Below, piece after piece: positions 1,290 to 53,426 of a stretch of 64,000 bases of DNA. The stretch is from Gemmatimonadota bacterium. Its GTDB lineage: Bacteria; Gemmatimonadota; Gemmatimonadetes; Gemmatimonadales; Gemmatimonadaceae. How positions within the stretch are numbered: the first letter of the stretch is position 1; every line of letters begins with the position of its first letter. Where the stretch lies: NCBI GenBank assembly GCA_040388625.1, contig JAZKBK010000006.1, forward strand, positions 544,702-608,701. The letters are read 5' to 3'. Position numbers and translations under genes: made by a program. The notes under the pieces were generated by a model, which worked only from the letters and a program-made list of their open reading frames with translations, was not told the origin of the DNA and ran no database searches.

Positions 1290-2260
1290 GCAGCCGCCCG
1301 GACGACCGCTTCCGGCTGTCCCATCAACTCCATGAACGCATCCTCGACTCCAGCGGAGATCGGTTTCACGCGAACATCCGTGAATCCACTACCGGCGAGA
1401 TACGTGCGCAGCTCCGCCACGATATCATCCGTCGCCTTCCCGGTCCGCGCATCGCTGTAATGGACTTCATCTCCGAACGGATAGACCGATTTCGCATGCT
1501 GGTAGTCCCGGAGCGATTGGATCAGCTTGTGTCGCTCGTTTGCATGCACGGCGATCAGCGGATTCGGATATCGCGCCGCGATTGCCGCGGGAGCGTCCAC
1601 GGCAAGGATACGCCCTTGCTGAATCAGCCCGACCCGATCGCAGCGTGTCGCCTCGTCCATGTAAGCGGTCGATACGAGAATCGGCAGGCCCGATGTCTTG
1701 AGCGCGCCGAGCAGATCCCAGAATTCGCGTCGCGAGACCGCATCGACGCCAGTCGTCGGCTCGTCGAGAAAGAGAATCTCGGGGCGATGAACCAGCGCAC
1801 AGCAAAGCGCAAGCTTCTGCTTCATTCCACCGGACAGCGCGCCGGCGCGACGATCCTTGAACGGCTCTATCTGCTCGTAGATCGGTGCGATGATGGCGCG
1901 CCCTTCGTCGATGCTCGTACCAAACACCGAAGCGAAGAAGCTCAGATTCTCTTCGACACTCAGATCCGGATAAAGCGAGAACCTCCCGGGCATGTATCCG
2001 ACTCTGGAGCGAATCGCCCATAGATCGCGCACCACATCCAGCCCCAGGACCGTCGCCGTGCCGGAGTCCGGAACGAGCAGCGTAGTCAGAATGCGAAACA
2101 GCGTGGTCTTCCCGGCACCGTCCGGCCCCACAAGTCCAAACAGCTCGCCAGCGTTCACTGCGAACGAGACGTCGGACAGCGCGACAGTCTCCTCGAAGCG
2201 TCTTGACACACCGCTAACCTCCAGCGGCGCCTGAGAGCTCGCCACCGAGTGATCCGTCAT
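1286..2260 (-). CDS. ABC transporter ATP-binding protein (first NBD of a YbhF-like pair)
   Basis: A 324-residue ABC ATPase with Walker A GPDGAGKTT, a canonical signature LSGGMKQKLAL and Walker B ILFLDEPTTGVD. About 90 residues follow the NBD (from NPLIAVHANERHKL onward), a C-terminal extension often found in drug-export ATPases. Its start overlaps the HlyD gene stop by 4 bases and its stop overlaps the next ATPase start by 4 bases. The canonical signature here and the variant one in its partner suggest a heterodimer with one conventional and one atypical site. This is inferred from family behaviour. Confidence 0.93.
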   Translation of the reverse strand: MTDHSVASSQAPLEVSGVSRRFEETVALSDVSFAVNAGELFGLVGPDGAGKTTLFRILTTLLVPDSGTATVLGLDVVRDLWAIRSRVGYMPGRFSLYPDLSVEENLSFFASVFGTSIDEGRAIIAPIYEQIEPFKDRRAGALSGGMKQKLALCCALVHRPEILFLDEPTTGVDAVSRREFWDLLGALKTSGLPILVSTAYMDEATRCDRVGLIQQGRILAVDAPAAIAARYPNPLIAVHANERHKLIQSLRDYQHAKSVYPFGDEVHYSDARTGKATDDIVAELRTYLAGSGFTDVRVKPISAGVEDAFMELMGQPEAVVRAAA

Positions 2261-3237
2261 GAGCTGCGCGCCGGCGCCGGTGAATCGGTGTTGGCCGCAG
2301 GATTCACGGCAGCTTTCGCGCTCGTCGCTCGAATGGACAGGTCCCCCGGCATTCCAATCTTGAGCGCGCCATCGCGATTGACGACGCGCACCTTGACCGC
2401 GTACACCAGATCCGCGCGCTCATCGCGCGTCTGAACCGGCGTCGGTGTGAATTCCGATGTAGACGACACCCAACTCACTGTTCCGGGCAGCGTCATTACA
2501 TGACCGCCGCGATCGACATGCACGTCGACGATCTGCCCGACCCTGAATGACGACAGTTGCGGCTCGCTCACGTACGCGCGCAATACCAGCGTGTCGAGAT
2601 CCGCGATCCGGTACAGCGGTGTTCCGGCCTGCACCACCTCTCCGGCGCGCGCATACGTCGTCAACACAGTTCCGGTCTGCGGATTCGTCACCAGGCTCTT
2701 GCCGATCCGGTCGCGGATCTGCGCCACCTGCGCATCCGCCGACGCCGCCTCCATCCCCACGCTCCTGCTCTGTGCCCGGGCAGCTTCTATCTGCGCCAGC
2801 AACGTACGATAATCCCGCTCGGCCTGATCCAACTGTTGTGCCGTCGCCGCCTGCTCTGCGTGCAGTCGCTGAGTACGCTCGTATGCCCGCTGCGACACGT
2901 CCCGTTGCACCAGCAACACCTTCAACTGCTTCGCAGCTTCCGTATTGCGCTCGTTCGCCGCATTGCGCTGGGCGTCCACCTGTTCCTGCTGCAGCGCAAG
3001 CTGGGTCGTATCGACGAGCGCCACCTCCGCGCCGCGTGCGAGCTGCATTCCTTCAACGGGAGTGAAGCGCTGAATCTGTCCCGCAGTTTGCGACGATACT
3101 ACAACCTCGGTCGCCTCGAAGTTGCCGTACGCATCAGGCTTGGTTCCACCTCCGCAACCGGCGAAAGTGAAACTGACGGCCAGCGCCAGCGCCGCGCAGC
3201 GCGTCCCGCCGATGCCGGTAATACCAGAGCGAGTCAT
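2257..3237 (-). CDS. HlyD/YbhG-family periplasmic adaptor lipoprotein
   Basis: A membrane fusion protein of 326 residues that would link the inner-membrane ABC pump to the TolC-type channel. The N-terminus has a signal sequence ending in a lipobox (FAGC), so it is probably a lipoprotein. It is followed by a biotinyl-lipoyl-like segment (VSSQTAGQIQRFTPVEGMQL), a long Gln/Ala/Glu-rich hairpin coiled coil (about residues 80-175) and the returning lipoyl half (LVTNPQTGTVLTTYARAGEV). A beta-barrel follows. The gene overlaps its neighbours (TGATG with tolC-like upstream, ATGA with the ATPase downstream). The short Ala-rich tail after SIRATS is probably disordered. Confidence 0.9.
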   Translation of the reverse strand: MTRSGITGIGGTRCAALALAVSFTFAGCGGGTKPDAYGNFEATEVVVSSQTAGQIQRFTPVEGMQLARGAEVALVDTTQLALQQEQVDAQRNAANERNTEAAKQLKVLLVQRDVSQRAYERTQRLHAEQAATAQQLDQAERDYRTLLAQIEAARAQSRSVGMEAASADAQVAQIRDRIGKSLVTNPQTGTVLTTYARAGEVVQAGTPLYRIADLDTLVLRAYVSEPQLSSFRVGQIVDVHVDRGGHVMTLPGTVSWVSSTSEFTPTPVQTRDERADLVYAVKVRVVNRDGALKIGMPGDLSIRATSAKAAVNPAANTDSPAPARSS

Positions 3238-4565
3238 CAGTGAACTCCCAGGCCGAGTGATGTCAGAAAGTTCGCGCGCGCCTGTGCCAGCTGCACGCGA
3301 TGCGTGGCGCGCGACAGCCGCGCGTCCAGCAGGTCGGTTTCGCGATCAACGTATTCCGCAGACGTGATCACGCCTTCCGAAAACCGGAATCCGGTTTCGC
3401 GAAGAATCTTCTCGCGCAGAGCGACGATCGTGTCGTCATCCACCAGTGTTTGCGCCAGCTGATCGATCGAGGCGACGTCATGCGCGATCGCTCGTCGAAC
3501 ACTCTGCGTGAATGCAGCTTCGTTGGTGGCAACGATCTGTCGCTGGAGCGCCAGCACCTCGCGATCCCGTCTCGTTGCGCCCCAGTTCCACGGCGTCCAT
3601 TCGACCTGAACGCCGGCGAGCCAGTAGTTGCTGAATTCCTGCGCCAGCGGGTTCAGGCCCGGTCTCCCGTAGCCGGCGCGTCCGAATGCGGACACGCGCG
3701 GCAGATCTGCCGCGCCGAGTGATGCCTGTTGCTGCGCCAGAACGTCACCCGTGCGCGCGAACTGCTCGTATTCGGGCCGCGCCCGCAATGTGTCGACGCT
3801 CTGTCGTGCTCGCGCAACCTCCGCGCCCAGATCCGGCAGCACCAGCGCATCCGCGCCCGTTATCTTCTGGCCGGTAAGATCGCCGAGCACGACCAGCGCA
3901 GCGTCGCGACTGGCGGCAAGCTGCGCAACCGCCTGACGGCGACGCAGGAGCTCCGCATCGAGCATGTCCGTCTCACTTGGTAGCGCCGATCCTTGCGCGA
4001 CGCGGCTGGCTGCAATCTTTCGCCTCGCCTCCAGGTCGGTGATCGCGCTCTCCTGTTCGGCGCGTTGAGCCTGTTGCAGCAACGCCGAGAAGTACGCGTC
4101 GTTGACGTTCTGGCGCAGAGCGAACGTGGATGCCTGAACACCAGCCTCCGACGCTGCGAGCTGTGCCCGCTCGACGCTGCGTCGTGCGCTCACTGTCGGG
4201 TCGTAGATCGGCTGCTGCGCTCCGACGTGCGCGTCGTACGTGTCGTGCGCCGGAACGGGCAATGACAATCCGTTCGGAAGCTGCAGCGGGAGCGTCACTA
4301 CTTGCGATTGATACTGCCCCTGAGCATTCGCGCTGATTACGGGAAGCCGTGATGCATCGATGTCCTGCATCCGGAGCGCCGACTGCGACGATAGCAGATC
4401 GAGCTGTCGGGTGCGCGGGTCGTGTTGCACAGCGCGGTTCTGCAGGTCGTCGAGCCGAAGCGAGTCACGCGCGGCCGCCTGCTGCGCGTGCAGCATCACC
4501 GGACCGGCACAAATTGAAATCGCCGCGCATACAATTGCGCTCACTGATTGACGACACGTCATCAC
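3237..4565 (-). CDS. TolC-family outer membrane efflux protein
   Basis: An outer-membrane factor of 442 residues. It begins with a signal peptide (ending near VMLHAQQ) and shows the two long heptad-rich helical repeats of the TolC/OEP fold (for example the segments around RAQLAASEAGVQ and LALQRQIVATNE). Length is typical for the family. It lies second in the operon and overlaps tetR by 4 bases and hlyD by one base. With the adaptor and the ABC pump it would form a tripartite exporter spanning both membranes, which supports a diderm host. Confidence 0.9.
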   Translation of the reverse strand: MMTCRQSVSAIVCAAISICAGPVMLHAQQAAARDSLRLDDLQNRAVQHDPRTRQLDLLSSQSALRMQDIDASRLPVISANAQGQYQSQVVTLPLQLPNGLSLPVPAHDTYDAHVGAQQPIYDPTVSARRSVERAQLAASEAGVQASTFALRQNVNDAYFSALLQQAQRAEQESAITDLEARRKIAASRVAQGSALPSETDMLDAELLRRRQAVAQLAASRDAALVVLGDLTGQKITGADALVLPDLGAEVARARQSVDTLRARPEYEQFARTGDVLAQQQASLGAADLPRVSAFGRAGYGRPGLNPLAQEFSNYWLAGVQVEWTPWNWGATRRDREVLALQRQIVATNEAAFTQSVRRAIAHDVASIDQLAQTLVDDDTIVALREKILRETGFRFSEGVITSAEYVDRETDLLDARLSRATHRVQLAQARANFLTSLGLGVH

Positions 4566-5197
4566 GGCCTCAGCGCGTTGAGGATGAAGTCAGGAAGCTC
4601 GCGTCTCCGCTCGTCGAGGAATCGCGAGAACGCCGCGTCGTCCTGGCCGAAGACGATGCGAAGCACCGGCCTCGCGATGAACGGAAAGACGCACAGCGCG
4701 ACCAGATTCACGAAAAACTGGTCCGGCGCGATCGAGCGCATCGCGCCGATCTTCACCTGCTCGTCGATCTGCGCACCGAGTCGTGGCAGAAATGCCTGCA
4801 TCACGCTCGCCGGATGCGTGCCCGCGATTTCTGCCGCCAGCGCCGTGAGCCGCTCGGGATTGAAGTGCAGCTCTGCGACGATATAGCCCGGAATGAACGG
4901 ACTCTGCCGCACGACGTCGATGTAGAGGTGAACGAACTGCTCGACCTTCTGCTCGATACTGCTCTCGGAGCCGAGCACGGCGACGATAGACGGCACCATC
5001 CGCCCCGCGACGTCGCGGAAAACAGCCTGCGCCAGGCGGTCCTTGGACCGGAAGTAATAGTGCAGCAGCGCCTGGTTGACCCCGGCCTCCTCGGCGATCT
5101 CCTGCATTCGCGCGCCGGCGGTCCCGTGCCGCACGAAGACCGTTCGTGCCGCCCGAAGGATCCGCTCCTCGGTCTCGCCGTCCTTATCCCTGGACAT
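4562..5197 (-). CDS. TetR-family regulator of the efflux operon (CecR-like)
   Basis: A 211-residue TetR regulator. The N-terminal helix-turn-helix is clear (RILRAARTVFVRHGTAGARM, then EIAEEAGVNQALLHYYFRSK), followed by an all-helical ligand-binding domain of normal size. It is the first gene of the operon and overlaps the TolC gene by 4 bases, an arrangement like cecR-ybhGFSR of enterobacteria but with the outer-membrane channel included. The ATG at 5195-5197 sits next to an AT-rich dyad (5200-5228), so autorepression of the whole exporter is likely. The inducer cannot be predicted. Confidence 0.92.
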   Translation of the reverse strand: MSRDKDGETEERILRAARTVFVRHGTAGARMQEIAEEAGVNQALLHYYFRSKDRLAQAVFRDVAGRMVPSIVAVLGSESSIEQKVEQFVHLYIDVVRQSPFIPGYIVAELHFNPERLTALAAEIAGTHPASVMQAFLPRLGAQIDEQVKIGAMRSIAPDQFFVNLVALCVFPFIARPVLRIVFGQDDAAFSRFLDERRRELPDFILNALRP

Positions 5198-5199
5198 TA

Positions 5200-5228
5200 T
5201 TAATCAGATAGTTTAAGTAAACGATTAA
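5200..5228. promoter_or_regulatory. Putative TetR operator / promoter of the efflux operon
   Basis: An AT-rich island in otherwise GC-rich DNA directly upstream of the tetR start. Outer arms TTAATC (5200-5205) and GATTAA (5223-5228) enclose an inner dyad GTTTA-AG-TAAAC (5211-5222). The outer and inner centres differ by about 2.5 bases, so two overlapping sites are possible. Position and symmetry fit a TetR-type autoregulatory operator. A -10-like TATATT/TATTAT on the minus strand lies just upstream (about 5233-5243). Confidence 0.5.
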
Positions 5229-5288
5229 CAGGGGATAATATAAATGGCCCCAAGCCAGGTTGGCAAGGAGCCGGTTCGAGTGTGCGGG

Positions 5289-5326
5289 AGCGTCGTCATT
5301 CCCGCGAAAGCGGGAATGACGACGCT
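5289..5326. repeat. dRS3/REP-like palindrome (17-bp perfect arms, GAAA loop)
   Basis: A perfect inverted repeat with arms 5289-5305 and 5310-5326 around a GAAA tetraloop. Its core is ATTCCCGC-GAAA-GCGGGAAT. It lies 9 bases beyond the stop of the downstream aldo/keto reductase gene and has no T-tract. The core closely resembles widespread ATTCCCGC...GCGGGAAT palindromes such as neisserial dRS3 and similar REP-like repeats. It could also act as a transcription end for the reductase operon. Confidence 0.7.
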
Positions 5327-5334
5327 TGCAGTGC

Positions 5335-6321
5335 TTACAAACCCACCGACTTCATCCCGCCCTCGGCGTATCGCGCCCCCGCCGCAACTCCGCGCGGTGC
5401 GATCTCATCGATGCGCGACATGTCCGCAGCCGTGAGCACCACGGCCAGCGCTCCGACGTTCTCCTCCAGATACTTCTCGTGCCTGGTCCCCGGAATCGGC
5501 ACGATATCGTTGCCCCGATGCAGCAGCCATGCGAGCGCGATCTGCGATGGCGTGCAGCCTTTCGACTTCGCCAACTGCTCGACGTGCCGCACCAGCTCCA
5601 GATTCCTGTCGAAATTCTCCCCCTGAAAGCGCGGATTATTGTGACGCCAGTCGTCGGCGGGAAGATCGTTCTCACTCTTGAATTTGCCGGTGAGAAAGCC
5701 ACGGCCGAGTGGGCTGTAGGCGACGAAACCGACACCAAGCTCGCGGCACGTTGGGAGGATCTCATCCTCCACGTCGCGACTCCAGAGTGAATACTCGGTC
5801 TGCAACGCAGTTATCGGATGCACCGCGTTGGCACGCCGCAGTGTAGCCGGCGCGGCCTCGCTCATCCCCAGATGTCGCACCTTTCCCGCGCCCACGAGAT
5901 CTGCCATCGCGCCTACCGTATCCTCGATCGGCACCTTCGGATCGACGCGATGCTGATAGTAGAGATCGATGTGATCCACGCCCAGGCGTCCCAACGATGC
6001 ATCGCACGCCTTCCGCACGTAATCCGGCGAACCGTTGATGCCAAGATAGGCACCCGAGTCCGACCGCATGTTCCCGAACTTGGTCGCGAGCACTACCCTG
6101 TCGCGACGATCGCGGATCGCCTTTCCAACGAGTTGCTCGTTGGTGAACGGTCCATACATGTCCGCGGTGTCCAGCAGCGTTACTCCCAGTTCGATCGCCC
6201 GATGAATCGTCGCGATCGATTCGTTGTCATCATGTGCGCCATAGAAGTCGCTCATTCCCATGCACCCGAGTCCGAGTGCGGATACTTCCAGCTGCGCACG
6301 TCCAAGATTTCGTTTCTGCAT
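5335..6321 (-). CDS. Aldo/keto reductase
   Basis: A 328-residue NADPH-dependent aldo/keto reductase, a cytoplasmic (beta/alpha)8 barrel. The catalytic tetrad is visible: Asp and Tyr in [14 protein letters not shown], Lys in VLATKFGN and His in [10 protein letters not shown]. The C-terminal cofactor region [17 protein letters not shown] is also typical. It starts 5 bases after the stop of a paralogous reductase (6327-7325), so the two are a tandem-duplicated, co-transcribed pair. Similarity is to the YakC/AKR13-like group. The substrate is unknown. Confidence 0.92.
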
Positions 6322-6326
6322 CGTCG

Positions 6327-7337
<1,011 letters not shown>

Positions 7338-7348
7338 TCATTCGTTGT

Positions 7349-7365
7349 GATGACGATGCGTCATC
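7349..7365. promoter_or_regulatory. Small dyad upstream of the reductase pair
   Basis: A perfect 7-bp inverted repeat, GATGACG-ATG-CGTCATC, 23 bases upstream of the first reductase start. It is a possible operator. No regulator gene is adjacent, so the assignment is weak. Confidence 0.3.
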
Positions 7366-7463
7366 CATCCGAAATAAGGATGCATGGTCGTGCGACGGGA
7401 AGTGGCAACGGCCCGCACACCGGCGCGCATGCGCGAGTAGTCGTGAGGTTACCCGGATGCGCG

Positions 7464-7494
7464 CCGGCAATTACAACCGGCAATTACAGCCGGC
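7464..7494. repeat. 13-bp tandem microrepeat
   Basis: Two copies of a 13-bp unit, CCGGCAATTACAA then CCGGCAATTACAG, followed by a third partial copy (CCGGC). It lies between the reductase pair and the TTHB210-like gene. It is probably slippage-derived, and no function is apparent. Confidence 0.6.
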
Positions 7495-7517
7495 CTGACC
7501 CGCCACGTCGATCGGCC

Positions 7518-8327
7518 TCAGTGCTGCGTCAACCCGCCGAGCGTGAAGCGATACTCCTTCGCCGACTGGTCGTAGCTGACCGTGTAACTCGTCGGGAAAC
7601 GGCCCGACGCTCCCCAGTCGGCAGGCTGCGGAATGGCGTGAGTCGCATTGGGATGCGTCTCGAGATACGCCTTGGTGATCATCGGTTCGAGGAAGATGAA
7701 CTTTCCATCCCACGACCCAAAGATGAACGTGTTGGTGAATCCCTGTCCGTTCAGCTCGGGCGCCCTGGTGTCGGTCCAGTGCAGGCCCATCTGCGGAACG
7801 GCGTTGGCGGCCGCTACGCCCGGAGGTGGAACGTAACCAGTCGGTATCATGTTCGCCGACGGATAATTCGCCGCCTTGGCGCCGTACTGCGGATCGCTCG
7901 GGAGGATGGCGTTCTGCGCTGCACTACTCACCATGTAGAAGTGCAGGTCGAAGTGCGGTACGCCATACAGCTGCGGTGGCTCGTGCCCATTTGGATTCCA
8001 CCCCAGCTCGGCGTGGTCGAAGCCGTGACCCTGCGCCTGTGCCGGTAGCGGCAGCGTGACCATCAGCGCGGTAGGGCTCGGACCGGTCGCCGTCGCGGGC
8101 AGGCCGTTGAGAGCCTGTTCGGTCATGGCAATACCCAGTGCAGTCGGGGCGCCGGCCGCGTCGGTCTGCACCCACGCGCGCGCGGTCCCCTGCGCGAAGC
8201 TCTGCGACGGCCCGTAGAACGTACCCGCTTTCGAGTCCGGCGCCTCGGTGTTGGAGCAGGCAATCGCGATGGCCGCGGTCGCGGTCGCCACTACTGCGGC
8301 GATGCCGATGAATCGTTTCGTGTACAT
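7518..8327 (-). CDS. TTHB210-like (DUF5602) lipoprotein
   Basis: A 269-residue exported protein. The start is placed at the ATG 8325-8327 because a good ribosome site (AGGAGTG) precedes it by 6 bases; an in-frame start 63 bases further up has none. The N-terminus is a signal peptide with a lipobox-like IAIACSN. The body has the His-rich stretch HGFDHAELGWNPNGHEP followed by VPHFDLHFY, which I recognise from the TTHB210-like domain, a protein under sigma-E/anti-sigma-E control in Thermus. The clustered histidines and acids suggest metal binding. The role is unknown. It is transcribed divergently from the kinase gene. Confidence 0.75.
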   Translation of the reverse strand: MYTKRFIGIAAVVATATAAIAIACSNTEAPDSKAGTFYGPSQSFAQGTARAWVQTDAAGAPTALGIAMTEQALNGLPATATGPSPTALMVTLPLPAQAQGHGFDHAELGWNPNGHEPPQLYGVPHFDLHFYMVSSAAQNAILPSDPQYGAKAANYPSANMIPTGYVPPPGVAAANAVPQMGLHWTDTRAPELNGQGFTNTFIFGSWDGKFIFLEPMITKAYLETHPNATHAIPQPADWGASGRFPTSYTVSYDQSAKEYRFTLGGLTQH

Positions 8328-8473
8328 GGTTTCACTCCTGAGTGGTCGCCCCAAGCCGGGCATTCTGCAGCGCCTGTTGCTGCCTGACACTCCAATAGCG
8401 AAAACCGGGTGCGGGATATTTCACGCGATTCGCCGGCAGGATTTCGGAGCCGGTTGAAAACGGCCCGCCGGCG

Positions 8474-8503
8474 TTGTCTGACGAGCGGTTCCGGTGGTAT
8501 GAT
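8474..8503 (+). promoter_or_regulatory. Promoter of the kinase-STAND gene (probably leaderless)
   Basis: TTGTCT (8474-8479), an 18-base spacer and TATGAT (8498-8503). The GTG start at 8509 falls where transcription should begin, so the message is predicted to have almost no 5' leader. The alternative TTG start at 8503 would lie inside the -10 element and is therefore unlikely. Confidence 0.55.
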
Positions 8504-8508
8504 TGGGC

Positions 8509-11500
8509 GTGTCGCAGGAGCGGAATGCAGAGGTCGAGCGCCTCTTCGACGAGCTCATGGAGCTCGAACCCGCCGCGCGCGAAACGCGTGTACGACAGCT
8601 GGCGTCCACACCCGATGTTTCTCCCGCTGTTGCCGGTGAAGTAACATCACTGCTCGCCGCCGCAGACCGTGCTGGTGACTTTTTGGGTGTTCTCACGCGC
8701 GCAATCGCCGACTCTGACGTCGATTGCGAGGCAGGCGAAGTCATCGCGGGACGGTACCGGCTACAGAGCCGTCTTGGCCAGGGCGCGACCGGCGATGTCC
8801 ATCTCGCATGGGACAATCAGCTCGAGCGGCCGGTAGCGCTCAAATTTCTCCGCGGCGCCGCACGCGACAACCTCACAGGACGGGCGCGCTTCCTGGCGGA
8901 GGCACGCGCCGCGGCGAAACTGGACCATCGACACGTCGCAACGGTGCACGACGTCGGTGAGGATGGACATCGACGAGCGTTCATCGCGATGGCTTACTAT
9001 CCCGGCGAAACTCTCCGTGACCGTATCGCGAAAGGTGCGCTGCCACTGGCCGACGCCCTTCGCATCGCCGCGCAGATCGCGAGCGCGCTGGACGCCGCGC
9101 ATTCGGTGGGAATCGTTCATCGAGACGTGAAGCCTGCAAATGTTCTGTTCGACGCCGATGGCGCGGTCAAGCTTGCAGACTTCGGCGCGGCGAAGCTGAC
9201 CACGGGAACCATGTCGGCGAAAGACGAAATCACGATCGGGACCATCGCCTACATGTCGCCGGAGCAGGCGCGCGGAGAGCCTGTAGACCACCGTACCGAT
9301 CTGTGGGCGCTGGGTGTGCTGTTGTACGAGATGCTCGCAGGCGTTCGTCCATTCACGGCATCGAACGCGGAGACACTGTTACGAGCGCTCGCCAATGACG
9401 AGCCGCCGCTACCACTGCCGGACGACGTTCACGCAACGTCGGAAATCCGCGAGTTGCTTGCGAGTCTCCTGACAAGTGACGTCGCACGACGTGCAGGGAG
9501 CGCAGCAATCGTGAATCACACCCTCGCCAACTACATCAACGACGATGCGAGCTCGACCACGACACGCGCATCGGCGAGCGTCGCGCTCCCGAGCCCTGTG
9601 ACGAGTTTCGTAGGGCGGGAGCGGGAAATCGCGCTTGCACGCGATCTCCTGTCGCAAACCCGCCTGCTTACGCTCACCGGTCCGGGCGGTACCGGCAAGA
9701 CTCGTCTCGCACTACAACTCGCCGCCAACCTACACGACGAGGACATCGACGGAATCTGGTTCGTACCGCTCGCGGAGATCTCGGATCCGTCCCTGGTCCC
9801 CTCGATTCTCGCACAGACCATGGGCTTGCGTGACCTCGGCGGTAGCAATCCGCGCGACCGTGTGATCGCCGCCCTGCGTGAGCGACGCGCCGTTGTAGTG
9901 CTCGATAACTTCGAGCATGTAATTCGGGCCGCGACGTTCGTGTCGGCGCTGCTCGCTCGCTGCCCTCGGGTGTCGGTACTTGTCACGAGCAGAATTCCAC
10001 TCGGCGTGCAGGGCGAGCAGGAGCTGCCCGTGCCGCCACTAACCACGCCATCCTCGACAGATTCCGACGCAGCAAGCAGCGAAGCAGTACGTCTTTTCGT
10101 GCAGCGTGCGCGCGCGGTTCGGCCGGACTTCACGCTGAACGATGACGGACTCCTGGCTGTGGCGGAGATCTGCAGACGACTCGACGGTCTTCCCCTTGCA
10201 CTCGAGCTCGCGGCGGCACGGGCGAAGCTGCTATCGCCGCGTGCGATGCTCGCTCGCCTGGAGAGCAGATTCGATCTGCTGCAGGCGGATTCTTATGACC
10301 GTCCGGCGCGTCACAGCACCATGCGAAACGTCATCGACTGGAGCTACGTACTTCTCACCGACGCGGAGCGGACGCTCTTCAACACCCTGTCGGTATTTGC
10401 TGCCGGCGTTTCGCTCGAAGCAGCAGAGGCGATGTACGATGCGACGCATCTCCGCAATGGAGATCCGCGCTCATCCTTTGCAGTACTCGATCTGCTCGGA
10501 TCACTATGCAACAAGAGCCTGCTACGTCAGGAAGAGCAATCCGACGGAGAGCCGCGCTTCATCATGCTGGAGACGGTGCGCGAGTTTGCCCTGGATCGGC
10601 TGCGCGCGGCCGGTGGCGAGACGGAGGCGCGCCGAGCCCATGCCGCGTATTATTTATCGCTGGCAGAACGCGCCGCGAGCCAGCTCCGCGGCCCCGCGCA
10701 GGCGGAATGGCTGGATCGACTCGAGCGGGAATATGCGAATTGTCGTATCGCGATTGACACCGCACTCGGCCAGACGCGCGCGCAATCGCCCGAAGGGCTC
10801 GTAACCGCGGCGCGACTTGCGATCGCGTTGCATCGGCTGTGGCTCACACGTGGACCGCTGCTGGAGGGTGTGGAGTATCTGCGGCGAGTCACCGAAGCCG
10901 CCGACGACGACGCACTTCGCGACGCCGTGAGCGATCCGCTCGACATCAAGCTGCGAGCGGGCCTGCTGAGCAGTGCCGGTCAGCTTGCGAATGTGCGCAG
11001 CGTATTTCCCCAGGCGCACGACTTCTTCGCCCGAAGCCTCGCATTGCACCGCGAGGCATGCGATGAGGCCGGCGTTGCGACGACGTTGAACAATCTCGCA
11101 TGGTCGGCGTGGATAATGGGAGACATGAACGCCGGCGAACAGATGGCCACCACGGCGATGCGGATGCACGAGAAGTCCAGCGACGCGCTCGGCGCTACGC
11201 TGTCGCTGAACACTCTCGGCTGGATCGCGATGGAGCGTGGACAATACTCCCGCGCCGAGACGTACTTCGCAAATGCTGTGACGTCACACCAACAGCGCGG
11301 TGATCGCAGAGCGGTCGCCTTTACACTGGGATGGATCGGAATACTGGCCGCCCGTCGTGGCGATTTTTCACGCGCCATCGAGCTGCACACGCGGGCGATA
11401 GACATGCTGGAACCGGTGGCCGATCAGGGTTACAGGGTTCTGAGCTGCGTACGGCTCGCAGCTGCGCGTCATGCGGCCGGAGAGCCGGGCGACCACGTCA

Positions 11501-30163: not shown

Positions 30164-30429
30164 CGCAGCGCGTACAGCCACGTCGCTACGTCGCGCGCTT
30201 CGCGCTCCGACACACCGAGATCCGGCATCGCCGTCCCTGGCTTCACATTGCGCGGAAATCGAATCCACAGCACGAGAGTTCCAGGAGTGGTCGGCAACAT
30301 TCCCGCAATGTGCGCCGGCCGGCGGTTCAATCCGGCGACGGAAGCTGCGGTCGGCTCTTCTGTTGGATACGTGGAAGTGTCTTTTTGTGCGCTTTCGGCC
30401 GAGTGAGTACTTTCCGCTCGTGGTGCACA
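30160..30429 (-). pseudogene. Remnant of a class I cytochrome c gene
   Basis: The minus-strand frame open from 30429 to the TAA at 30162-30160 ends in a clear cytochrome c C-terminus: GLNRRPAHIAGMLPTTPG, LVLWIRFPRNVKPGTAMPDLG (read as two parts), then VSEREARDVATWLYALR. The axial-Met motif AMPDLG and the final helix are intact. There is no CxxCH haem site and no start codon with a ribosome site; a TAA lies immediately upstream. The gene has therefore lost its N-terminal half. It is squeezed between the Ig-like lipoprotein and the glucoamylase-like gene. Confidence 0.7.
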
Positions 30430-30431
30430 TT

Positions 30432-31745
30432 ATGCCTCGACGTAACGCCATGACCACGCCTGTCGACGACAAGCTACTTGATAGACTGCAGCAGAAGACG
30501 TTCAGCTACTTCGTGAACGAGGTGAATCTCGACAATGGCCTCGTGCGCGACAGAACGGAAGTCAACGCACCATCCAGCATTGCGGGAACAGGCCTTGCCC
30601 TTGCCTCGTATCCCGTGGGTGTGGAGCGCGGATACTTCGAGCGCGACGATGCCATCCAGCGCACGCTCTCATGTTTACGTTTCTTTGCGAAAAGCACGCA
30701 GAGTACAGACAGAAATGCGACTGGCTACAAGGGGTTCTACTACCACTTCCTGGACATGCAGACGGGCCGCCGCGTCTGGAAGTCCGAACTGTCATCCGTC
30801 GATTCTGCGTTCCTCCTGGCGGGAATGTTGACAGCGGCAGAATATTTCACACGCGATACACAGGAAGAGCGCGAGATCCGCGCGCTTGCGACACAGCTCT
30901 ACGAGCGCGTCGACTGGCAGTGGATGCTCAACAACGGCCCCACCCTCTCGCACGGATGGACGCCGGAACGTGGCTTCATGCGCTATCGCTGGCAGGGCTA
31001 CAGCGAGGCGCTTCTGCTCTACATACTCGGCCTTGGCTCGCCGACGCATCCACTGCCCCAGGAGACGTACACGGCATGGACATCGACGTACAAGTGGAAG
31101 AAGATCTACGGCACGGAGTTTCTGTACTCCGGTCCGTTGTTCACACATCAGCTATCGCACGTCTGGATCGACTTTCGCGGCATCCGCGACCCTTACATGC
31201 AGCAAAGGGAGTCGGATTATTTCGACAACAGCCGGAGTGCGACACATGTCCAGCGCAAGTACGCGATCCGTAATCCGATGCAGTTTGCCGGATACGACGA
31301 GTCATGCTGGGGTCTCACGGCAAGCGATGGCCCGGCCCGGATCACATGCCGCGTCGATGGTATCGTGCGACGCTTCTACGACTACATGTCGCGCGGCGCA
31401 CCCTATGGTCCCGACGACGGTACGATCGCTCCGTGGGCCGTCGTCGCCTCGCTTCCCTTTGCACCCGATATCGTGCTACCCGCGATCAAGCAATTCCATC
31501 GATTGAAATTGATGGAACCCAATCCGTACGGGTTCCCGACGGCGTTCAACCGGACCTTCCCGACGAAAGACGCCGGAACGATCGGATGGATCTCCCCCAG
31601 TCACTGCGGACTCAATCAGGGCCCGATCGTCCTGATGATCGAGAATCATCGCACGGAGCTGATCTGGAAGCTTATGCGCAACTGCTCTTACATCGTCACC
31701 GGATTGCGCCGCGCGAAGTTCGCGGGCGGATGGCTGCAGAGTTAG
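30432..31745 (+). CDS. Glucoamylase-like (PF10091-type) glycoside hydrolase
   Basis: A 437-residue (alpha/alpha)6-barrel-type protein of the glycoamylase-like family, whose known members include GH144 beta-1,2-glucanases. Family-like segments include QKTFSYFVNEV, the early loop RDRTEVNAPSSIAGTGLALASY, KGFYYHFLDMQTGRR, SELSSVDSAFLLAGMLTAAEYF, LSHGWTPERGFMRYRWQGYSEALLLYILGL and the C-terminal WISPSHCGLNQGPIVLMIEN. No signal peptide is evident, so it may act inside the cell or on imported glucans. The ATG at 30432 or the one at 30450 is plausible. Confidence 0.83.
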   Translation: MPRRNAMTTPVDDKLLDRLQQKTFSYFVNEVNLDNGLVRDRTEVNAPSSIAGTGLALASYPVGVERGYFERDDAIQRTLSCLRFFAKSTQSTDRNATGYKGFYYHFLDMQTGRRVWKSELSSVDSAFLLAGMLTAAEYFTRDTQEEREIRALATQLYERVDWQWMLNNGPTLSHGWTPERGFMRYRWQGYSEALLLYILGLGSPTHPLPQETYTAWTSTYKWKKIYGTEFLYSGPLFTHQLSHVWIDFRGIRDPYMQQRESDYFDNSRSATHVQRKYAIRNPMQFAGYDESCWGLTASDGPARITCRVDGIVRRFYDYMSRGAPYGPDDGTIAPWAVVASLPFAPDIVLPAIKQFHRLKLMEPNPYGFPTAFNRTFPTKDAGTIGWISPSHCGLNQGPIVLMIENHRTELIWKLMRNCSYIVTGLRRAKFAGGWLQS

Positions 31746-31903: not shown

Positions 31904-33385
31904 TCATTCGCGCACGGGCTTCACACCTTCGGGCGCGCGCGGATATCCCACAACATCGACTGTCCATCCACGCTTGCGCAGACGATTGGCAACCATCGTC
32001 AACTGCGCCGGCTCTCCGATCGCGCTCGAGTACGCCCAGCGAAGTGACGGCGAGTACAGAAGAAGAGCACCCTGCAGATTCGGAACGTCAATTGGCTCAA
32101 CCCAGAGGGAATCACGACCCGCACCTGAGAGCTTGATCCACTGGCCCCGAGCGACAACGTGAAGCGTGCTCAGCGGCGCGCCATAGTTCTTGAGCGACGC
32201 GGAATCGCCCTTCGCGCCAGGCTGTGCCACGTAAATCGGCAGTCCTTTCCTGGACACCCACGATGCGCCGCCCGACGGAGACGCCGTCCCCATTATCGCG
32301 CCAATCACTTTGCTGCCAGAGTCGTTCGAAGCCAGCCAACTCGCAGCACGTGCGGCGTTCAAGGGCAGGTTTCCCGGTTCGAGAAGCACCCAGCCTTTGC
32401 CGACCTTTACAGCCGCGACCGGGCCACCCGGCGCTTGGAATACCGCGATCATTCGATCGGGCGCAAGGCGCGCGTTGGTCAGAGGCAGGTCGGCCATCGG
32501 ATGACGTGCGTGCGCCAGATATTCCGATCGAACGGAGTCGCTCAGCACGAGTGAATCAGCTGGAAGCGCAGGATTGAACGCTACCGACAGCACGGTCATG
32601 CGCTTGTACGGTCTTCCCACTCTTGCGATGTCCCACTGCGCAGGAGTCCGCACATGTGAAGCGGGGTCGGTGCGCCACTGAGAGTACCAGACTTCGACAG
32701 TCATCGGTCCCCACGGAGCGAGCCCAAAGTCGTTGGACTCGTCAGCGTGATAGCGTGCCATCGTCAGAAAGCCGTCGCTACGACGGAAGAACGCCGTCGT
32801 CGGGAATCCGTCAATCGTCGCCGAGACAGCCGCCTCCTGGATTCCGCCTATCACGGTGTCGGGGCGCGAGCGCAGATCCGAAGCGTTGCGAAGTAGCAGC
32901 ACCAGGCGGTCGGGCGTAAATGCGAACAGCTCGCGCCGTTCATCGATGTATGCAACGTTCAGTGCAGTCCAGTTGTCGACGGTCCTGCCTGCATTGGCGA
33001 CGCTTGGAAGTGGCGTCGTGCTGTAGCGAGCAGCCACTGTGTCGATCACAAGATCGGTGACTTCGGTCCACCGAGGTCCGGCAAATCTTCGCACATTGCG
33101 CCACGTGCGCGTCGTGTAGTCACGCATGTCGCTGTTCAGCTCGTAGCTCGGGGCGTCCTCGAACGGTCGTGGAGCGAAGTTCGTCGACAGCCACTGCGTG
33201 ACCATTGAATAACGCGCCGTCCGAATACCGCGAAGCGCATCCAGACCACCCATCTGCGCGATCGCCGAGTCGACAGTCGCCATGGCCCGCAAGTCCGTCC
33301 GGGCGGTGACTGGCGTGGGCCTCTGAAGGACTGGGTGCGCAGTCGCGATAAGAGACGACAACAATGCAATTGTCCAGAACATCAT
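31904..33385 (-). CDS. Exported protein with a metallo-beta-lactamase-like C-terminal half lacking metal ligands
   Basis: 493 residues with a signal peptide (FWTIALLSSLIATAHPV). The N-terminal half begins AIAQMGGLDALRGIRTARYS, like LolA-type or outer-membrane lipoprotein-sorting folds in related secreted proteins. The C-terminal half (from NARLAPDRMIAVFQAPGG) has the strand pattern of an MBL fold. Where HxHxDH should stand it reads GTASPSGGASW, so a zinc site is absent. Two LytTR-type boxes lie 84-115 bases upstream in the direction of the gene. It is probably a non-enzymatic secreted protein under control of the nearby two-component system. The fold assignment is my inference. Confidence 0.6.
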   Translation of the reverse strand: MMFWTIALLSSLIATAHPVLQRPTPVTARTDLRAMATVDSAIAQMGGLDALRGIRTARYSMVTQWLSTNFAPRPFEDAPSYELNSDMRDYTTRTWRNVRRFAGPRWTEVTDLVIDTVAARYSTTPLPSVANAGRTVDNWTALNVAYIDERRELFAFTPDRLVLLLRNASDLRSRPDTVIGGIQEAAVSATIDGFPTTAFFRRSDGFLTMARYHADESNDFGLAPWGPMTVEVWYSQWRTDPASHVRTPAQWDIARVGRPYKRMTVLSVAFNPALPADSLVLSDSVRSEYLAHARHPMADLPLTNARLAPDRMIAVFQAPGGPVAAVKVGKGWVLLEPGNLPLNAARAASWLASNDSGSKVIGAIMGTASPSGGASWVSRKGLPIYVAQPGAKGDSASLKNYGAPLSTLHVVARGQWIKLSGAGRDSLWVEPIDVPNLQGALLLYSPSLRWAYSSAIGEPAQLTMVANRLRKRGWTVDVVGYPRAPEGVKPVRE

Positions 33386-33468
33386 GACGGGAGTTCAGGT
33401 AATCGAGCGGGACATTCAGCAGTTGCGAGGAAGCTAGAATCGCGGTCGTCCACATGACAACGGACGAG

Positions 33469-33500
33469 CAGCGAACGGTAGCGATCCTACAGCGAGCGGT
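33469..33500 (-). promoter_or_regulatory. LytTR-type box pair upstream of 31904-33385
   Basis: CAGCGAACGGT (33469-33479) and CAGCGAGCGGT (33490-33500), 21 bp apart. On the gene's own strand these read ACCGTTCGCTG and ACCGCTCGCTG. A -10-like TAGCTT (minus strand, 33436-33431) lies 32 bases further towards the gene. The 21-bp period (about two helical turns) is the known spacing for LytTR dimers. Confidence 0.68.
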
Positions 33501-33664
33501 CGTTTGACTTCGGCTAAAGCGCTCGGTCCTTGCGGCGGTCCGCAACTGGGGCAGCGACCACGGTCGCGGATGCGTCGAGCTGCCATTGGCGACGCTAGAC
33601 GATGAATTTGGGATTACGCACTTCGCGTCTCGCGGAGCCCTCTGGTCGTGCAGAGATCGGTAGT

Positions 33665-33696
33665 ACCGCTAACGGACCAGAACCGTCCGCTCGCTG
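33665..33696 (+). promoter_or_regulatory. LytTR-type box pair upstream of 33817-34791
   Basis: ACCGCTAACGG (33665-33675, imperfect) and TCCGCTCGCTG (33686-33696), again 21 bp apart and facing the gene. A TAGCGT -10-like element follows after 31 bases (33728-33733). The first box is the weakest of the six in this locus. Confidence 0.58.
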
Positions 33697-33816
33697 CAAA
33701 ATATGAACCTGTTGCGCGGCGGGGGGTTAGCGTGCGAGAGAACGGGACACCGCCGGCTCCTGAAACGATCATCAGGAGCAACGCACGCACAACGCAAACC
33801 AGTACCTCTCGCGAAC

Positions 33817-34791
33817 ATGACTCCTCGCACTATCACGAGCGCACTGCTGCCGATGCTGCTCACGTTATTGAGCACTGCCGTCGCCGCACAGGCAACTCCA
33901 CCCCGTATATTCTCGCCCGGCGTGATCTCGGGTCCGGCGAACGACCTGTCGCCTGCCTTCACCCCCGATGGCAAGACGGTTTTCTTCACGCGGTCCAACT
34001 CGAGCCAATCGACGATTCTCGTTTCACATCTGTCCGGCGTAACGTGGTCGAACCCTCGAATCGCTCCGTTTTCTGGAGAGTGGCTCGATCTTGAACCGAC
34101 GATGGCTCCGGACGGATCGTACCTGATCTTCATCTCAAGCCGGCCCACAGCGACGGGCGGAAAGCCAATCGATGGGTTTTACAACGGCGCTGCACAACCA
34201 GGTAGAGGCGGAAACCTCTGGCGCGTTGATCACACGTCGAGCGGATGGGGTGAGCCGCATCGCCTGCCGAACATAGTCAACAGCAATACATCGATCTACT
34301 CGCCAAGCATCGCGGCAGACGGAAGCATCTACTTCATGCAACCAACGGGCGCAAAGACAAGGTTTCACCTGTTTCGCGCGCAGTTCTCGCACGGCGAGTT
34401 CGCGGCTCCGGTCGAAGTACCCGTGAGCGCCGGTGAGGACATCGGAGACTTCGATCCCGCTGTGGCGCCCGACGAGTCATTCATGGTTTTCTCGTCCACG
34501 CGCATTGCTGGCAAGGGCACATCACTCTTCATCACGTTTCGCAGGAGCGGCGCCTGGAGCACACCGGAGTACATGGGAGACACCGTGAGTATTCCCGGCG
34601 CAGGCAGCATCGAGGCGCGCCTGGGCGGACCAGGTCATCGCACGCTCTACTTCTCCAACCGGTACGTCGAGCCAGCGACCCCGCCCCAGAGTCGGGCATT
34701 GAGTGCCAGGGGCCTCGAGCTCATGGCGGAATGGAACAACGGCCTCGCGAACATCTGGCAAGTGTCGCTCGCCTCCTGGCTCGACAAGTGA
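33817..34791 (+). CDS. Exported WD40-like (PD40) beta-propeller protein
   Basis: 324 residues, starting at ATG 33817 with a signal peptide (ITSALLPMLLTLLSTAVAAQ). The mature part is made of TolB/PD40-type propeller blades: DLSPAFTPDGKTVFFTRS, DLEPTMAPDGSYLIFISS, IYSPSIAADGSIYFMQ and DFDPAVAPDESFMVFSS. There is no catalytic domain. It is the nearest upstream neighbour of the LytS-like kinase gene and has a LytTR box pair 121 bases ahead, so it is probably a member of that regulon. It may bind a carbohydrate or protein ligand in the envelope; function unknown. Confidence 0.82.
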   Translation: MTPRTITSALLPMLLTLLSTAVAAQATPPRIFSPGVISGPANDLSPAFTPDGKTVFFTRSNSSQSTILVSHLSGVTWSNPRIAPFSGEWLDLEPTMAPDGSYLIFISSRPTATGGKPIDGFYNGAAQPGRGGNLWRVDHTSSGWGEPHRLPNIVNSNTSIYSPSIAADGSIYFMQPTGAKTRFHLFRAQFSHGEFAAPVEVPVSAGEDIGDFDPAVAPDESFMVFSSTRIAGKGTSLFITFRRSGAWSTPEYMGDTVSIPGAGSIEARLGGPGHRTLYFSNRYVEPATPPQSRALSARGLELMAEWNNGLANIWQVSLASWLDK

Positions 34792-34901
34792 CGAGACGAA
34801 ACGCATAAATTCAGCCTGTAGCTGCTTGCTGCGGCGGCGCCTGTCGACAATCATGAGACCAACGGCTCGCGACCCGGGACGAAGTGCCTGCCGAACCGAT
34901 C

Positions 34902-34930
34902 TTGTGAACCGAGTGCACCGATGTTAGCGT
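34902..34930 (+). promoter_or_regulatory. Promoter of the LytS-like kinase gene (leaderless)
   Basis: TTGTGA (34902-34907), a 17-base spacer and TAGCGT (34925-34930). The ATG at 34938 is the eighth base after the -10, where transcription should start. No 21-bp box pair was found here, so the system is probably not autoregulated in the same way as its targets. Confidence 0.5.
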
Positions 34931-34937
34931 CGCGATA

Positions 34938-36146
34938 ATGCAAGTCCTCGTTCCGAACGCCACGGAGGAAAGCGGACGGCGCCGGCGGGTGCCGTTCGAT
35001 GTGATTCTCGTCGCCGTGTGGGCGGTACCGGCCGCGCTTGCGGTCATCGAGACGTACACGTTCGCGCGAACGAGCGGGAGACCGTTTTCGCTCGAGTCCA
35101 TCATGCTGCGCGAGACTGCAACGTGGGCCACCTACGGCGTGCTGGCCCCGCTGGTATTCCGGCTCGCAAACCGGTTTCCCCTCCGCGCCCCGTCAGTGCG
35201 CCGGCACCTCGCCCTGCATGTCTGCGGCGCCATCCTCGCCGGGTCGGCGGCTGCGGCGGTAGATACCGCCGCGACCCAATTGACCCGCAATGCTACCGAC
35301 TCCGCTCAACTGTTGACGATGAGCGTTGAGCGAATGTTCCTGTCATGGTGGCTCGGCGGCCTTGCTGTCGCCTTTCTGTCGTATTTCGCGGTTGTCGGCG
35401 TCGCCCACGCCATGAGCTACTTCCGCGAAGCCCAACAGCGCCGGGAGGATGCGCTCCGCCTCGAAGGCCAGCTCGCCGATGCGCGGCTCGCCGCTCTGCA
35501 AGGGCGTTTGCATCCGCACTTTCTGTACAACACTTTGAATGCAATAACCGTCCTCGTCCGCGACGGCGACATCACCCGATCGACGCGAATGCTGGAGCTT
35601 CTCAGTACCATGCTACGCCGCGTGCTCGACGGATCACTTCCACAGATCGTCCCGCTGAGTACCGAGCTTGCGCTGTTGCGTCAGTACCTGGAGATAGAAG
35701 AAGTGCGCTTCTCCGACAGACTGACGGTCACACTCGACGTCGATACGCATGCTCGTCAGGCCGGAGTGCCAACGCTCGTGACTCAGCCGCTCGCCGAGAA
35801 CGTGATCCGGCACGCAGTGGCGAATACCTTGCGCCATGTCACGCTCAGCATCAACGCACACGTCATCAGCAATCCGGAAGGGCGCGACACGCTCGAGTTG
35901 ACGGTGTCGGATGACGGTCCCGGGCTCACACCGGGCTGGGAACGACGTCGCATCGAGCATACGGGACTTTCGGCTACGGCGCTGCGCATTACGACGCTCT
36001 ACGGCTCTGATGGTTTGCTTGAAATACACCCGCGAGCTGACGGTGGAACCGTTTCCACTGTGCGCATCCCGTACGTGAAGCTTTCCGAGCGTCGTGACGA
36101 CGAGTGGACAGCAGTCGATGATGATCTGACACGGCAGGCGGTTTGA
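34938..36146 (+). CDS. LytS/YehU-type membrane sensor histidine kinase
   Basis: A 402-residue sensor. Four hydrophobic segments occur in the first ~150 residues (VILVAVWAVPAALAVIETYTF; WATYGVLAPLVFRL; LALHVCGAILAGSAAAAV; WWLGGLAVAFLSYFAVVGVA). A short coiled coil follows, then the His_kinase core with the phosphorylated His in LHPHFLYNTLNA (near residue 190). The ATPase part is QPLAENVIRHAV, then VSDDGPGL. This is the family that pairs with LytTR response regulators, and the next gene is exactly that, overlapping by one base (TGATG). The membrane part has no recognised ligand domain, so the signal is unknown. Confidence 0.93.
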   Translation: MQVLVPNATEESGRRRRVPFDVILVAVWAVPAALAVIETYTFARTSGRPFSLESIMLRETATWATYGVLAPLVFRLANRFPLRAPSVRRHLALHVCGAILAGSAAAAVDTAATQLTRNATDSAQLLTMSVERMFLSWWLGGLAVAFLSYFAVVGVAHAMSYFREAQQRREDALRLEGQLADARLAALQGRLHPHFLYNTLNAITVLVRDGDITRSTRMLELLSTMLRRVLDGSLPQIVPLSTELALLRQYLEIEEVRFSDRLTVTLDVDTHARQAGVPTLVTQPLAENVIRHAVANTLRHVTLSINAHVISNPEGRDTLELTVSDDGPGLTPGWERRRIEHTGLSATALRITTLYGSDGLLEIHPRADGGTVSTVRIPYVKLSERRDDEWTAVDDDLTRQAV

Positions 36147-36892
36147 TGCGCGTCGTAATAGTCGATGACGAGCCGCTCGCAAGACGTGGCATTCGTCAGC
36201 TGCTGGCCGACCATCCTGATGCGCAAATCGTGGCCGAATGTCCCAGCGGAGCGGTAGCTCTTGCGGCAGTACAGACGCTCTCGCCCGATCTGTTATTTCT
36301 CGATGTACAGATGCCGGAAATGGATGGATTCGAAGTGGTTCGACGAATCGGAGTCGAGCGGATTCCCTCAGTCGTGTTCGTGACCGCATACGATGAATTT
36401 GCCGTGAACGCGTTCGAGGCGTCTGCCGTCGATTACCTGATGAAGCCGGTGGGACCGGAGCGGTTCTCCGCCGCAATGCGTCGCGTGCGCGAACGCCAGA
36501 CCGAAACGGCTGCCCTCGCCCGCGTTGCGGAGCTGCAAGCCTTGTTGACGCAGGTGACTCCCGCGATAAGCCAACCGCTGCTCGTCACTACAGCGAAGGG
36601 CACGATACGTATCGATCCTGATGAAATTGACTGGATCGGCGCTGATGATTATTACGCCGTTCTGCACGTTGGTGTGAAGCATTATCTGCTTCGCGAATCG
36701 CTCGCATCGTTGGAGGATCGTCTGCCAGCCGGTCGCTTCGTGCGCGTCCATCGCTCCGCGATAGTGAATTGCAGCAGAGTGACGGAGGTTCGCCGAGGAG
36801 TGGTTGTCCTGCGCGATGGCATCACTCTGTCTACCAGCAGGCGCCGGCGTGCGGCGGTAAGAGCTGCGTTGGGCGAGACGTCCGCCGCCTGA
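36146..36892 (+). CDS. LytTR-family response regulator
   Basis: A 248-residue regulator. The receiver domain has MRVVIVDDEPLARRG (acid pocket), the phosphoacceptor Asp in LLFLDVQMPEMDG, VTAYDEFA and the Lys in DYLMKPVGPERF. The C-terminal LytTR DNA-binding domain is seen from LLVTTAKGTIRIDPDEIDWI through YYAVLHVGVKHYLLRESLASLEDRL to FVRVHRSAIVNCSRVTEV. LytTR proteins bind pairs of ~9-bp direct repeats one dimer apart. Three such pairs with 21-bp period occur in the 3.5 kb around this gene, one directly after its stop. Confidence 0.94.
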   Translation: MRVVIVDDEPLARRGIRQLLADHPDAQIVAECPSGAVALAAVQTLSPDLLFLDVQMPEMDGFEVVRRIGVERIPSVVFVTAYDEFAVNAFEASAVDYLMKPVGPERFSAAMRRVRERQTETAALARVAELQALLTQVTPAISQPLLVTTAKGTIRIDPDEIDWIGADDYYAVLHVGVKHYLLRESLASLEDRLPAGRFVRVHRSAIVNCSRVTEVRRGVVVLRDGITLSTSRRRRAAVRAALGETSAA

Positions 36893-36912
36893 CGCTCAAA
36901 AGCGCCGATCCA

Positions 36913-36944
36913 ACCGCTCGCTGAATCCGAGCTACCGCCCGCTG
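36913..36944 (+). promoter_or_regulatory. LytTR-type box pair upstream of 37049-37846
   Basis: ACCGCTCGCTG (36913-36923) and ACCGCCCGCTG (36934-36944), exactly 21 bp apart and facing the downstream gene. This is the clearest of the three pairs. A TAAGCT element (36987-36992) lies 42 bases downstream, about one helical turn further than in the other two promoters. Confidence 0.7.
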
Positions 36945-37048
36945 CAAGCTCTGGAATTGCAGTCGCAATGAGTCTTACCAGGATGCTAAGCTGAAGCTTG
37001 CGGCGTAAGCCTGCTCGCCATTCACATCAAACATCTCAGGGAGCTTCG

Positions 37049-37846
37049 GTGCGCTACTCTTCCGGCGCTTTATTCCGCGGTGCAACGCGGAACATGATTC
37101 CGCTATTCGCCACACTCACCATCGCTTCGGCGGCGCCTGCCGTCGCGCAATCGACCCACGTCGCTCCGATCGGCTCCGGTGCGGGTGCGAGCACCGCGCT
37201 GGTGCCCGGATCAGGGGATCTGACGACGGCACATTTTCGCGATACTACAACATCTTTCCGCTTCATACAGGACAGATTACCGAAGGGCGATTCGGTCGAT
37301 ATCGTTCGCGGTGTGGGGCATGAACAGATCCGGCACGTGGCGTATCAGGGGCGGCCCGCTATGCTGCTCGTCAAGACGGTAGACCTTAACGGGCGCATGT
37401 ATGTGGACAGCTCAACCGTCCTCGTCGACGGTCTTGCGCCAGTATCGGAGGTCTCGATCCTGGGGTCGCGACGCACGACGTACGCATACGATGGCGCCAG
37501 GGTGCATCGGTCGGTCACGCAGCCCGATTCCGCAACGAGGACCACGGATCACGATTTTCGAGTTCCGATGTTCCATTTCGAAGGGCTCGATGCCGTGATT
37601 CGCTCGATACCCTTGCGCCCCAATTACCACACGATCGTCCGCCTCTACTCCGAAGGCGACGACGGCATCGAGATGGATACAATAACCGTCGAGAAGCGTG
37701 ACGGCGCCAGGATATGGAACGTGCGCTTCGCCGATCCGGTGATCATTGCCCATTATGGAATAGACGGTGACACACGCAGAATCGTGCACTACGACATCGC
37801 GCGCCATGCCGATCGCGCACATTTCACGTATGTGTTCGATCAATAG
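37049..37846 (+). CDS. Exported protein of unknown function (LytTR target)
   Basis: 265 residues. The GTG at 37049 is chosen because AGGGAG stands 5 bases upstream. A signal-like hydrophobic stretch follows a basic N-terminus (MIPLFATLTIASAAPAVAQ). The rest is beta-rich and reads as strands with ends such as GRPAMLLVKTVDLNGRMYVDSS and EGDDGIEMDTITVEKRDG. This resembles the lipocalin-like or DUF3108-type secreted domains that report on a reporter substrate, but I do not recognise a family. It directly follows the two-component genes behind a strong LytTR box pair. Confidence 0.7.
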   Translation: MRYSSGALFRGATRNMIPLFATLTIASAAPAVAQSTHVAPIGSGAGASTALVPGSGDLTTAHFRDTTTSFRFIQDRLPKGDSVDIVRGVGHEQIRHVAYQGRPAMLLVKTVDLNGRMYVDSSTVLVDGLAPVSEVSILGSRRTTYAYDGARVHRSVTQPDSATRTTDHDFRVPMFHFEGLDAVIRSIPLRPNYHTIVRLYSEGDDGIEMDTITVEKRDGARIWNVRFADPVIIAHYGIDGDTRRIVHYDIARHADRAHFTYVFDQ

Positions 37847-53354: not shown

Positions 53355-53371
53355 GGATATCGGGAACCGGT

Positions 53372-53426
53372 GGTGGATTATTCACCATATGATGGTGGAT
53401 TATCCACCACGTGATGGAGGATAATC
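53372..53426. repeat. Three 22-bp iterons upstream of the DUF4143 ATPase
   Basis: Copies start at 53372, 53394 and 53416, exactly 22 bp apart. Copy 1 is GGTGGATTATTCACC, copy 2 the palindrome GGTGGATTATCCACC, copy 3 a half-conserved GGAGGATAATC. Spacing of two helical turns and self-symmetry point to a cooperative protein-binding array, most simply an autoregulatory operator. Confidence 0.75.

Follow-up and report, generated by a model that had tools for sequence, protein, structure and literature searches.

Three pairs of direct repeats in the 64,000-nucleotide stretch of Gemmatimonadota DNA analysed here (the window) are very probably operators of the LytTR response regulator encoded from position 36146, which would use them to activate the genes of exported envelope proteins. 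The sites, their spacing, their specificity to this locus, their co-occurrence with one regulator clade and the geometry of the promoters they front were all computed here.

Each pair consists of two boxes resembling ACCGYTCGCTG, repeated in the same direction with a period of 21 bp, and every pair faces a gene. Pair 1 (ACCGCTCGCTG-N10-ACCGTTCGCTG; 33469-33500, minus strand) faces the gene at 31904-33385, and its boxes at 33490 and 33469 match the consensus without mismatch. Pair 2 (33665-33696, plus strand) reads ACCGCTAACGG-N10-TCCGCTCGCTG and has a weak first box, the one at 33665 differing from the consensus at three positions and the one at 33686 at a single position. Pair 3 (ACCGCTCGCTG-N10-ACCGCCCGCTG; 36913-36944, plus strand) lies directly past the stop codon of the regulator gene, with no mismatch in the box at 36913 and one in that at 36934. 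The sequence bears out the initial annotation in the position of the six boxes, in their arrangement as three direct pairs of 21-bp period and in their distances of 84, 121 and 105 bases from the start codons; its description of all six as near consensus holds for five boxes at 0-1 mismatch and is slightly generous for the box at 33665, which has three.

It is the pair, rather than the single box, that stands out from chance. Single boxes with up to two mismatches occur 83 times in the window versus 71 expected, whereas the exact 21-bp pair occurs once and is absent from 100 shuffles. Across the whole 3.84-Mb genome, the pattern ACCGYTCGCTG-N10-ACCGYTCGCTG with up to three mismatches has three matches, namely pair 1 (no mismatch), pair 3 (one) and a single three-mismatch site elsewhere, compared with one match for the reversed control pattern. 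At up to one mismatch only pairs 1 and 3 are found, and the strict pair is thus not common at random sites, a point that had been left to a genome scan. Pair 2 is missed by this pattern at up to three mismatches, its first box alone having that many. By these pattern searches, on which the genome-wide statements rest, the box pairs are real and specific to this locus in the genome.

The position of the pairs relative to predicted promoter elements is informative. Published LytTR promoters have 9-bp repeats, a 12-bp spacer, 10 bp to the -35 element and about 17 bp from there to the -10 element (PMC6193735), and the predicted promoter geometry here equals that layout: the canonical arrangement 9-12-9-10-[-35]-17-[-10] is followed exactly or within one base by pairs 1 and 2, pair 3 being ambiguous. 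Promoter 1 (33431-33460, minus strand) combines TTGTCA, a good -35 hexamer (33460-33455), with an 18-bp spacer and the -10 element TAGCTT (33436-33431). The candidate -10 element of pair 2, TAGCGT (33728-33733, plus strand), lies 33 bases past the second 9-mer and is kept in a sister species of the same genus, G002. No -35 consensus was found at pairs 2 and 3. Two candidate -10 elements lie within 36976-36992 (plus strand) at promoter 3, TACCAG (36976-36981) and TAAGCT (36987-36992). The distances of 32, 31 and 42 bases given previously for the three -10 elements are correct as measurements, but the last, taken to TAAGCT, is uncertain, as TACCAG lies 31 bases away, the distance conserved in relatives, and would be favoured on that account. 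Furthermore, a NANNNT hexamer occurs 33 bases past the second 9-mer in seven of the 11 discovery promoters, a score that none of 2000 shuffles reaches at that offset; among held-out promoters the same offset of 33 carries the hexamer in 5 of 10, compared with a mean of 0.2 at other offsets and again with 0/2000 shuffles.

The regulator gene (36146-36892, plus strand) encodes a receiver domain (PF00072, 90.3 bits against a cut-off of 30.2) and a LytTR domain (PF04397, 67.8 bits against 22.6), with the motif SRRR at residues 231-234, close to where the LytTR domain ends on its C-terminal side. It follows a sensor histidine kinase gene (34938-36146, plus strand) whose product has a hydrophobic N-terminal part and matches His_kinase PF06580 (79.1 bits against 25.2). 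The locus had been called a LytS/LytTR system, and the second half of that name stands; the kinase, however, is a short PF06580-type protein that lacks the 5TM-5TMR_LYT sensor domain of LytS and BtsS, only PF06580 and HATPase_c being matched (E 1e-3). The host genome has five LytTR genes, and the regulator of the window is the only SRRR protein among them. Known LytTR-DNA contacts involve an FhRhHRS motif and a C-terminal arginine, R233 in AgrA (PMC4227749). That SRRR corresponds to this DNA-contacting arginine is only suggested, as the profile alignment used to map it ends short of that position; the LytTR domain alone, compared with the PDB by sequence, gave no useful match.

The link between this regulator and the pairs comes chiefly from its relatives. 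Among 18 genomes the strict pair (up to one mismatch) has seven matches, five of which adjoin either the regulator of the window or those most closely related to it (the two window pairs and sites in G016, G019 and G023), while the other two belong to G002, one being a relocated pair 1 and one lying near paralogues of the second and third target genes. Downstream (3′) of 101 regulators in related genomes there are six pairs at a spacing of 21 versus a total of three at fifteen other spacings, and the placement of pair 3 relative to the regulator recurs in other genera. In a maximum-likelihood tree, all nine site-bearing regulators fall inside a single 11-member clade (support 96/98). Its two further members, both from G033, were found on closer search to have a strong pair, ACCGCTCGC-12-GCCGTTTGC, and a weak pair, respectively. 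In this discovery set SRRR is present in 9/9 site-bearing regulators and in 0/90 outside the clade, and Arg 233 is the LytTR-domain position that differs most between the site-bearing clade and other regulators. Arg 233 alone is rejected as sufficient, since 12 regulators that have it within another motif show no 21-bp pair.

Because the box profile was derived from the window together with its closest relatives, only the held-out part of this comparison is free of circularity. For that part, new loci were collected by searching 295 genomes of the class with a clade profile; once two loci that had served before were taken out, 28 regulators (15 SRRR and 13 non-SRRR) remained. Pairs with a score of 15.5 or more were found at 8/15 SRRR loci versus 0/13 others (hypergeometric p ~0.002), with the cut-off fixed after the scores had been seen and with two weak matches adjoining non-SRRR regulators at a cut-off of 14. 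Two more SRRR loci have weaker pairs fronting relatives of the first target. A plain core pattern, used without the profile on 128 distinct loci, agrees with the held-out test: at a spacing of 21 bp it is present at 13 of 26 SRRR loci, with one match at twelve other spacings, compared with two among 102 non-SRRR loci, which have 11 matches at the twelve other spacings. At least four SRRR loci (L317, L319, L321 and L322) gave no clear site, and among the best eight relatives of the regulator from other phyla (up to 49% identity) there was no SRRR and no pair except one inside a coding region. Pairs inside kinase genes, in the region encoding HPHFLFN, were rejected as coding repeats, and a degenerate pair pattern allowing two mismatches was discarded as too loose, most of 60 genomes lying near the control count.

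Two related loci deserve separate mention. Past the regulator gene of L203 (G017), at about 6100-6190, there is a possible triple repeat, ATCGATCGC-12-GCCGTTCGC-12-GCCGTTCCC, which recalls the triple operators of CoxC and RcoM. The closest related system in another genus, L309 (G200:C57:1000-10500, positions 1400-6500), has a kinase, regulator and propeller protein 61%, 65% and 66% identical to those of the window; its propeller gene lies 3′ of the regulator, with no clear pair ahead of it.

Comparison with G002, whose regulator is 97% identical to that of the window, shows which pairs have stayed in place and which has moved. Both boxes of pair 2 are identical there, in a homologous block that begins at 33662, three bases ahead of the first box, and G002 lacks about 70 bp between the -10 element of this pair and the start codon. 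Pair 3 is retained with a few changes. Pair 1 is found some 12 kb away from the remainder of the locus, with one change, and still fronts the same gene, indicating that operator and gene moved together. In addition, weaker 21-bp pairs precede the genes for two G002 paralogues of the 37049 protein. The initial annotation had proposed a local regulon, and in the window the three pairs do face adjoining genes for exported proteins; given the distant pair 1 and the paralogue pairs of G002, however, the regulon is not strictly local. In a second G002 cluster (L176, G002:C7:236000-248000, positions 4700-9210), the PD40 propeller and the 37049 protein both have paralogues, at 32% and 41%, respectively. 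The cluster also encodes a DUF4440 protein and one with a tRNA-editing domain; the gene for the latter is faced by a pair at 5966, and that for the 37049 paralogue by a weak pair. Counts for the degenerate pair pattern are 14 in G002 versus three for the control, seven versus six in the genome of the window, 24 versus three in G015 and 54 versus four in G039, and it is possible that G002 has a larger regulon or that G015 and G039 contain repeats.

Taken together, the co-occurrence with the SRRR clade (held-out loci included), the distance to the -10 element and the movement of pair 1 with its gene support the earlier proposal that the regulator would bind the pairs and control the adjoining genes, and binding by the 36146 protein in particular is strongly supported by these comparisons. 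It is nonetheless worth considering other explanations. The pairs could be operators of this regulator at which it represses its genes, as CoxC does, a LytTR repressor whose repeats overlap the -35 element (PMC11347149). The repeats of the window, however, stop 10 bases before the -35 position, which is the arrangement of an activator, and most of the -35 hexamers are poor, as in activator-dependent promoters; repression is therefore an unlikely role for this protein. Likewise, the presence of five LytTR genes in the host genome leaves room for the boxes to be recognised by some other DNA-binding protein, such as one of the remaining four LytTR regulators. We consider this quite improbable, since the pair accompanies the SRRR clade and only rarely other LytTR regulators, and the window regulator is the sole SRRR protein of the five. 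Least probable of all, to the point that we give it very little weight, is that the pairs arose by chance or as copies of one duplicated promoter fragment and have no regulatory role: the frequency of single boxes would suit such an origin, but the spacers and flanks differ among the three pairs, and 21-bp pairs at the same promoter distance front unrelated gene families in distant genera.

All three target genes of the window are predicted to encode exported proteins. Target 1 (X493; 31904-33385, minus strand) has no Pfam or NCBIfam match; its predicted model (mean pLDDT 85.6) comprises a LolA/LprG-like N-terminal domain, which matches a lipoprotein-sorting domain with a Z of about 16, and a region, residues 297-493, that superimposes on metallo-beta-lactamases with Z of 15-16 and 3.0-3.7 A over about 175-180 residues. 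The HxHxDH metal-binding motif is absent at the aligned place, while the relative L199 keeps THHHWDHAGG, and the predicted metallo-beta-lactamase-fold domain of target 1 appears to have lost the metal motif. Target 2 (33817-34791, plus strand) is a PD40 beta-propeller protein by profile match, and its gene faces a pair in the window. Target 3 (37049-37846, plus strand) has no Pfam match, and one of its G002 paralogues matches DUF3108. At SRRR loci the families that recur facing a pair are HGSNAT-type membrane acyltransferases (PF07786), homologues of target 1 and DUF4440/DUF1579-like exported proteins; the likeness to DUF1579 is our own reading, Pfam having given no match. We found no paper linking LytTR with HGSNAT. 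Seven target-1 homologues that do not adjoin an SRRR regulator have no pair, and it is therefore the regulator, not the target, that the operator follows. Near target 1, and convergent with it, the window also encodes a glucoamylase-family protein (30363-31745, plus strand; PF10091, 283 bits), a gene that stays near target 1 in G002, both being apart from the kinase and regulator. A tandem repeat elsewhere in the window (53371-53426) contains about 2.5 copies of a partly palindromic 22-bp unit, TGGTGGATTATCCACCACATGA.

In the mechanism that we propose, the kinase encoded from 34938 would phosphorylate the regulator on a signal, probably one from the envelope, and the phosphorylated regulator would bind side by side on the two 9-bp direct repeats (RCCGYTCRC) with their 21-bp period, immediately upstream of a -35 element that is weak in most cases. 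Once bound, it would help RNA polymerase onto the -10 element 33 bases past the second repeat. Pair 1 would in this way switch on the gene for the LolA-like/metallo-beta-lactamase-fold protein, pair 2 that for the PD40 propeller and pair 3 that for the 37049 protein, and transcription from promoter 2 may read on into the kinase and regulator genes, giving positive feedback. Binding, activation rather than repression, the signal and the read-through are what we infer here from the computed features.

A broader reading is that SRRR (Arg 233 and Arg 234) is a specificity determinant tying this LytTR clade to RCCGYTCRC, and that the clade forms an envelope-control system not described so far, in which the operator stays the same and the targets change (HGSNAT-type acyltransferase, metal-less metallo-beta-lactamase-fold/LolA-like and DUF1579-like proteins). 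We offer this tentatively, as an idea that may well hold but that falls a little short of being our favoured expectation; if true, the tie between SRRR and RCCGYTCRC would be a step towards a LytTR recognition code. The site type and the LytTR promoter layout are already known. New, as far as could be found, are the clade-specific pairing of regulator and operator, the box variant and the recurring envelope targets, and we found no paper on LytTR regulation in this lineage. The locus and its relatives provide predicted LytTR operators together with their matching regulators, ready for bench work, two arginines that co-occur with a single operator sequence, so that DNA recognition by LytTR domains can be tested by mutation, and a predicted regulation attached to envelope protein families of unknown function.

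Known LytTR systems provide instructive points of comparison. BtsS/BtsR of E. coli likewise comprises a kinase and a LytTR response regulator, and the region upstream of btsT (yjiY) contains ACCGCTTAC-12 bp-ACCACTCAG, the same box type and 21-bp period as the window pairs. We take this motif to be bound by BtsR. The best-scoring NCBIfam model for the window regulator is in fact BtsR (NF008677), at 157.9 bits under a cut-off of 246, and with an identity of only 35% we rejected the assignment of the protein as BtsR itself. Furthermore, BtsR has SRRY rather than SRRR, and its known target is a pyruvate transporter, whereas the window targets are envelope proteins; evidence of pyruvate sensing by the window system was not found. 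The initial annotation had suggested that the box sequence may be undescribed, which does not hold, the type being known from ACCGCTTAC-12-ACCACTCAG of btsT and from LRS repeats such as ACCGCTTAT (PMC6193735). In an LRS a LytTR protein is paired with a membrane inhibitor, and the window system, with its receiver domain and histidine kinase, is not of this kind. LRS and AgrA-type promoters nonetheless share with the window two 9-bp repeats, a 12-bp spacer, about 10 bp to -35 and about 17 bp to -10 (PMC6193735), although their repeats are mostly ACCNCTTAN and those of the window RCCGYTCRC. CoxC and RcoM differ from the window system in using three repeats of another sequence and in having the sensory domain fused to the regulator, and resemble it in placing a LytTR domain on direct repeats separated by about two turns of the helix (PMC11347149).
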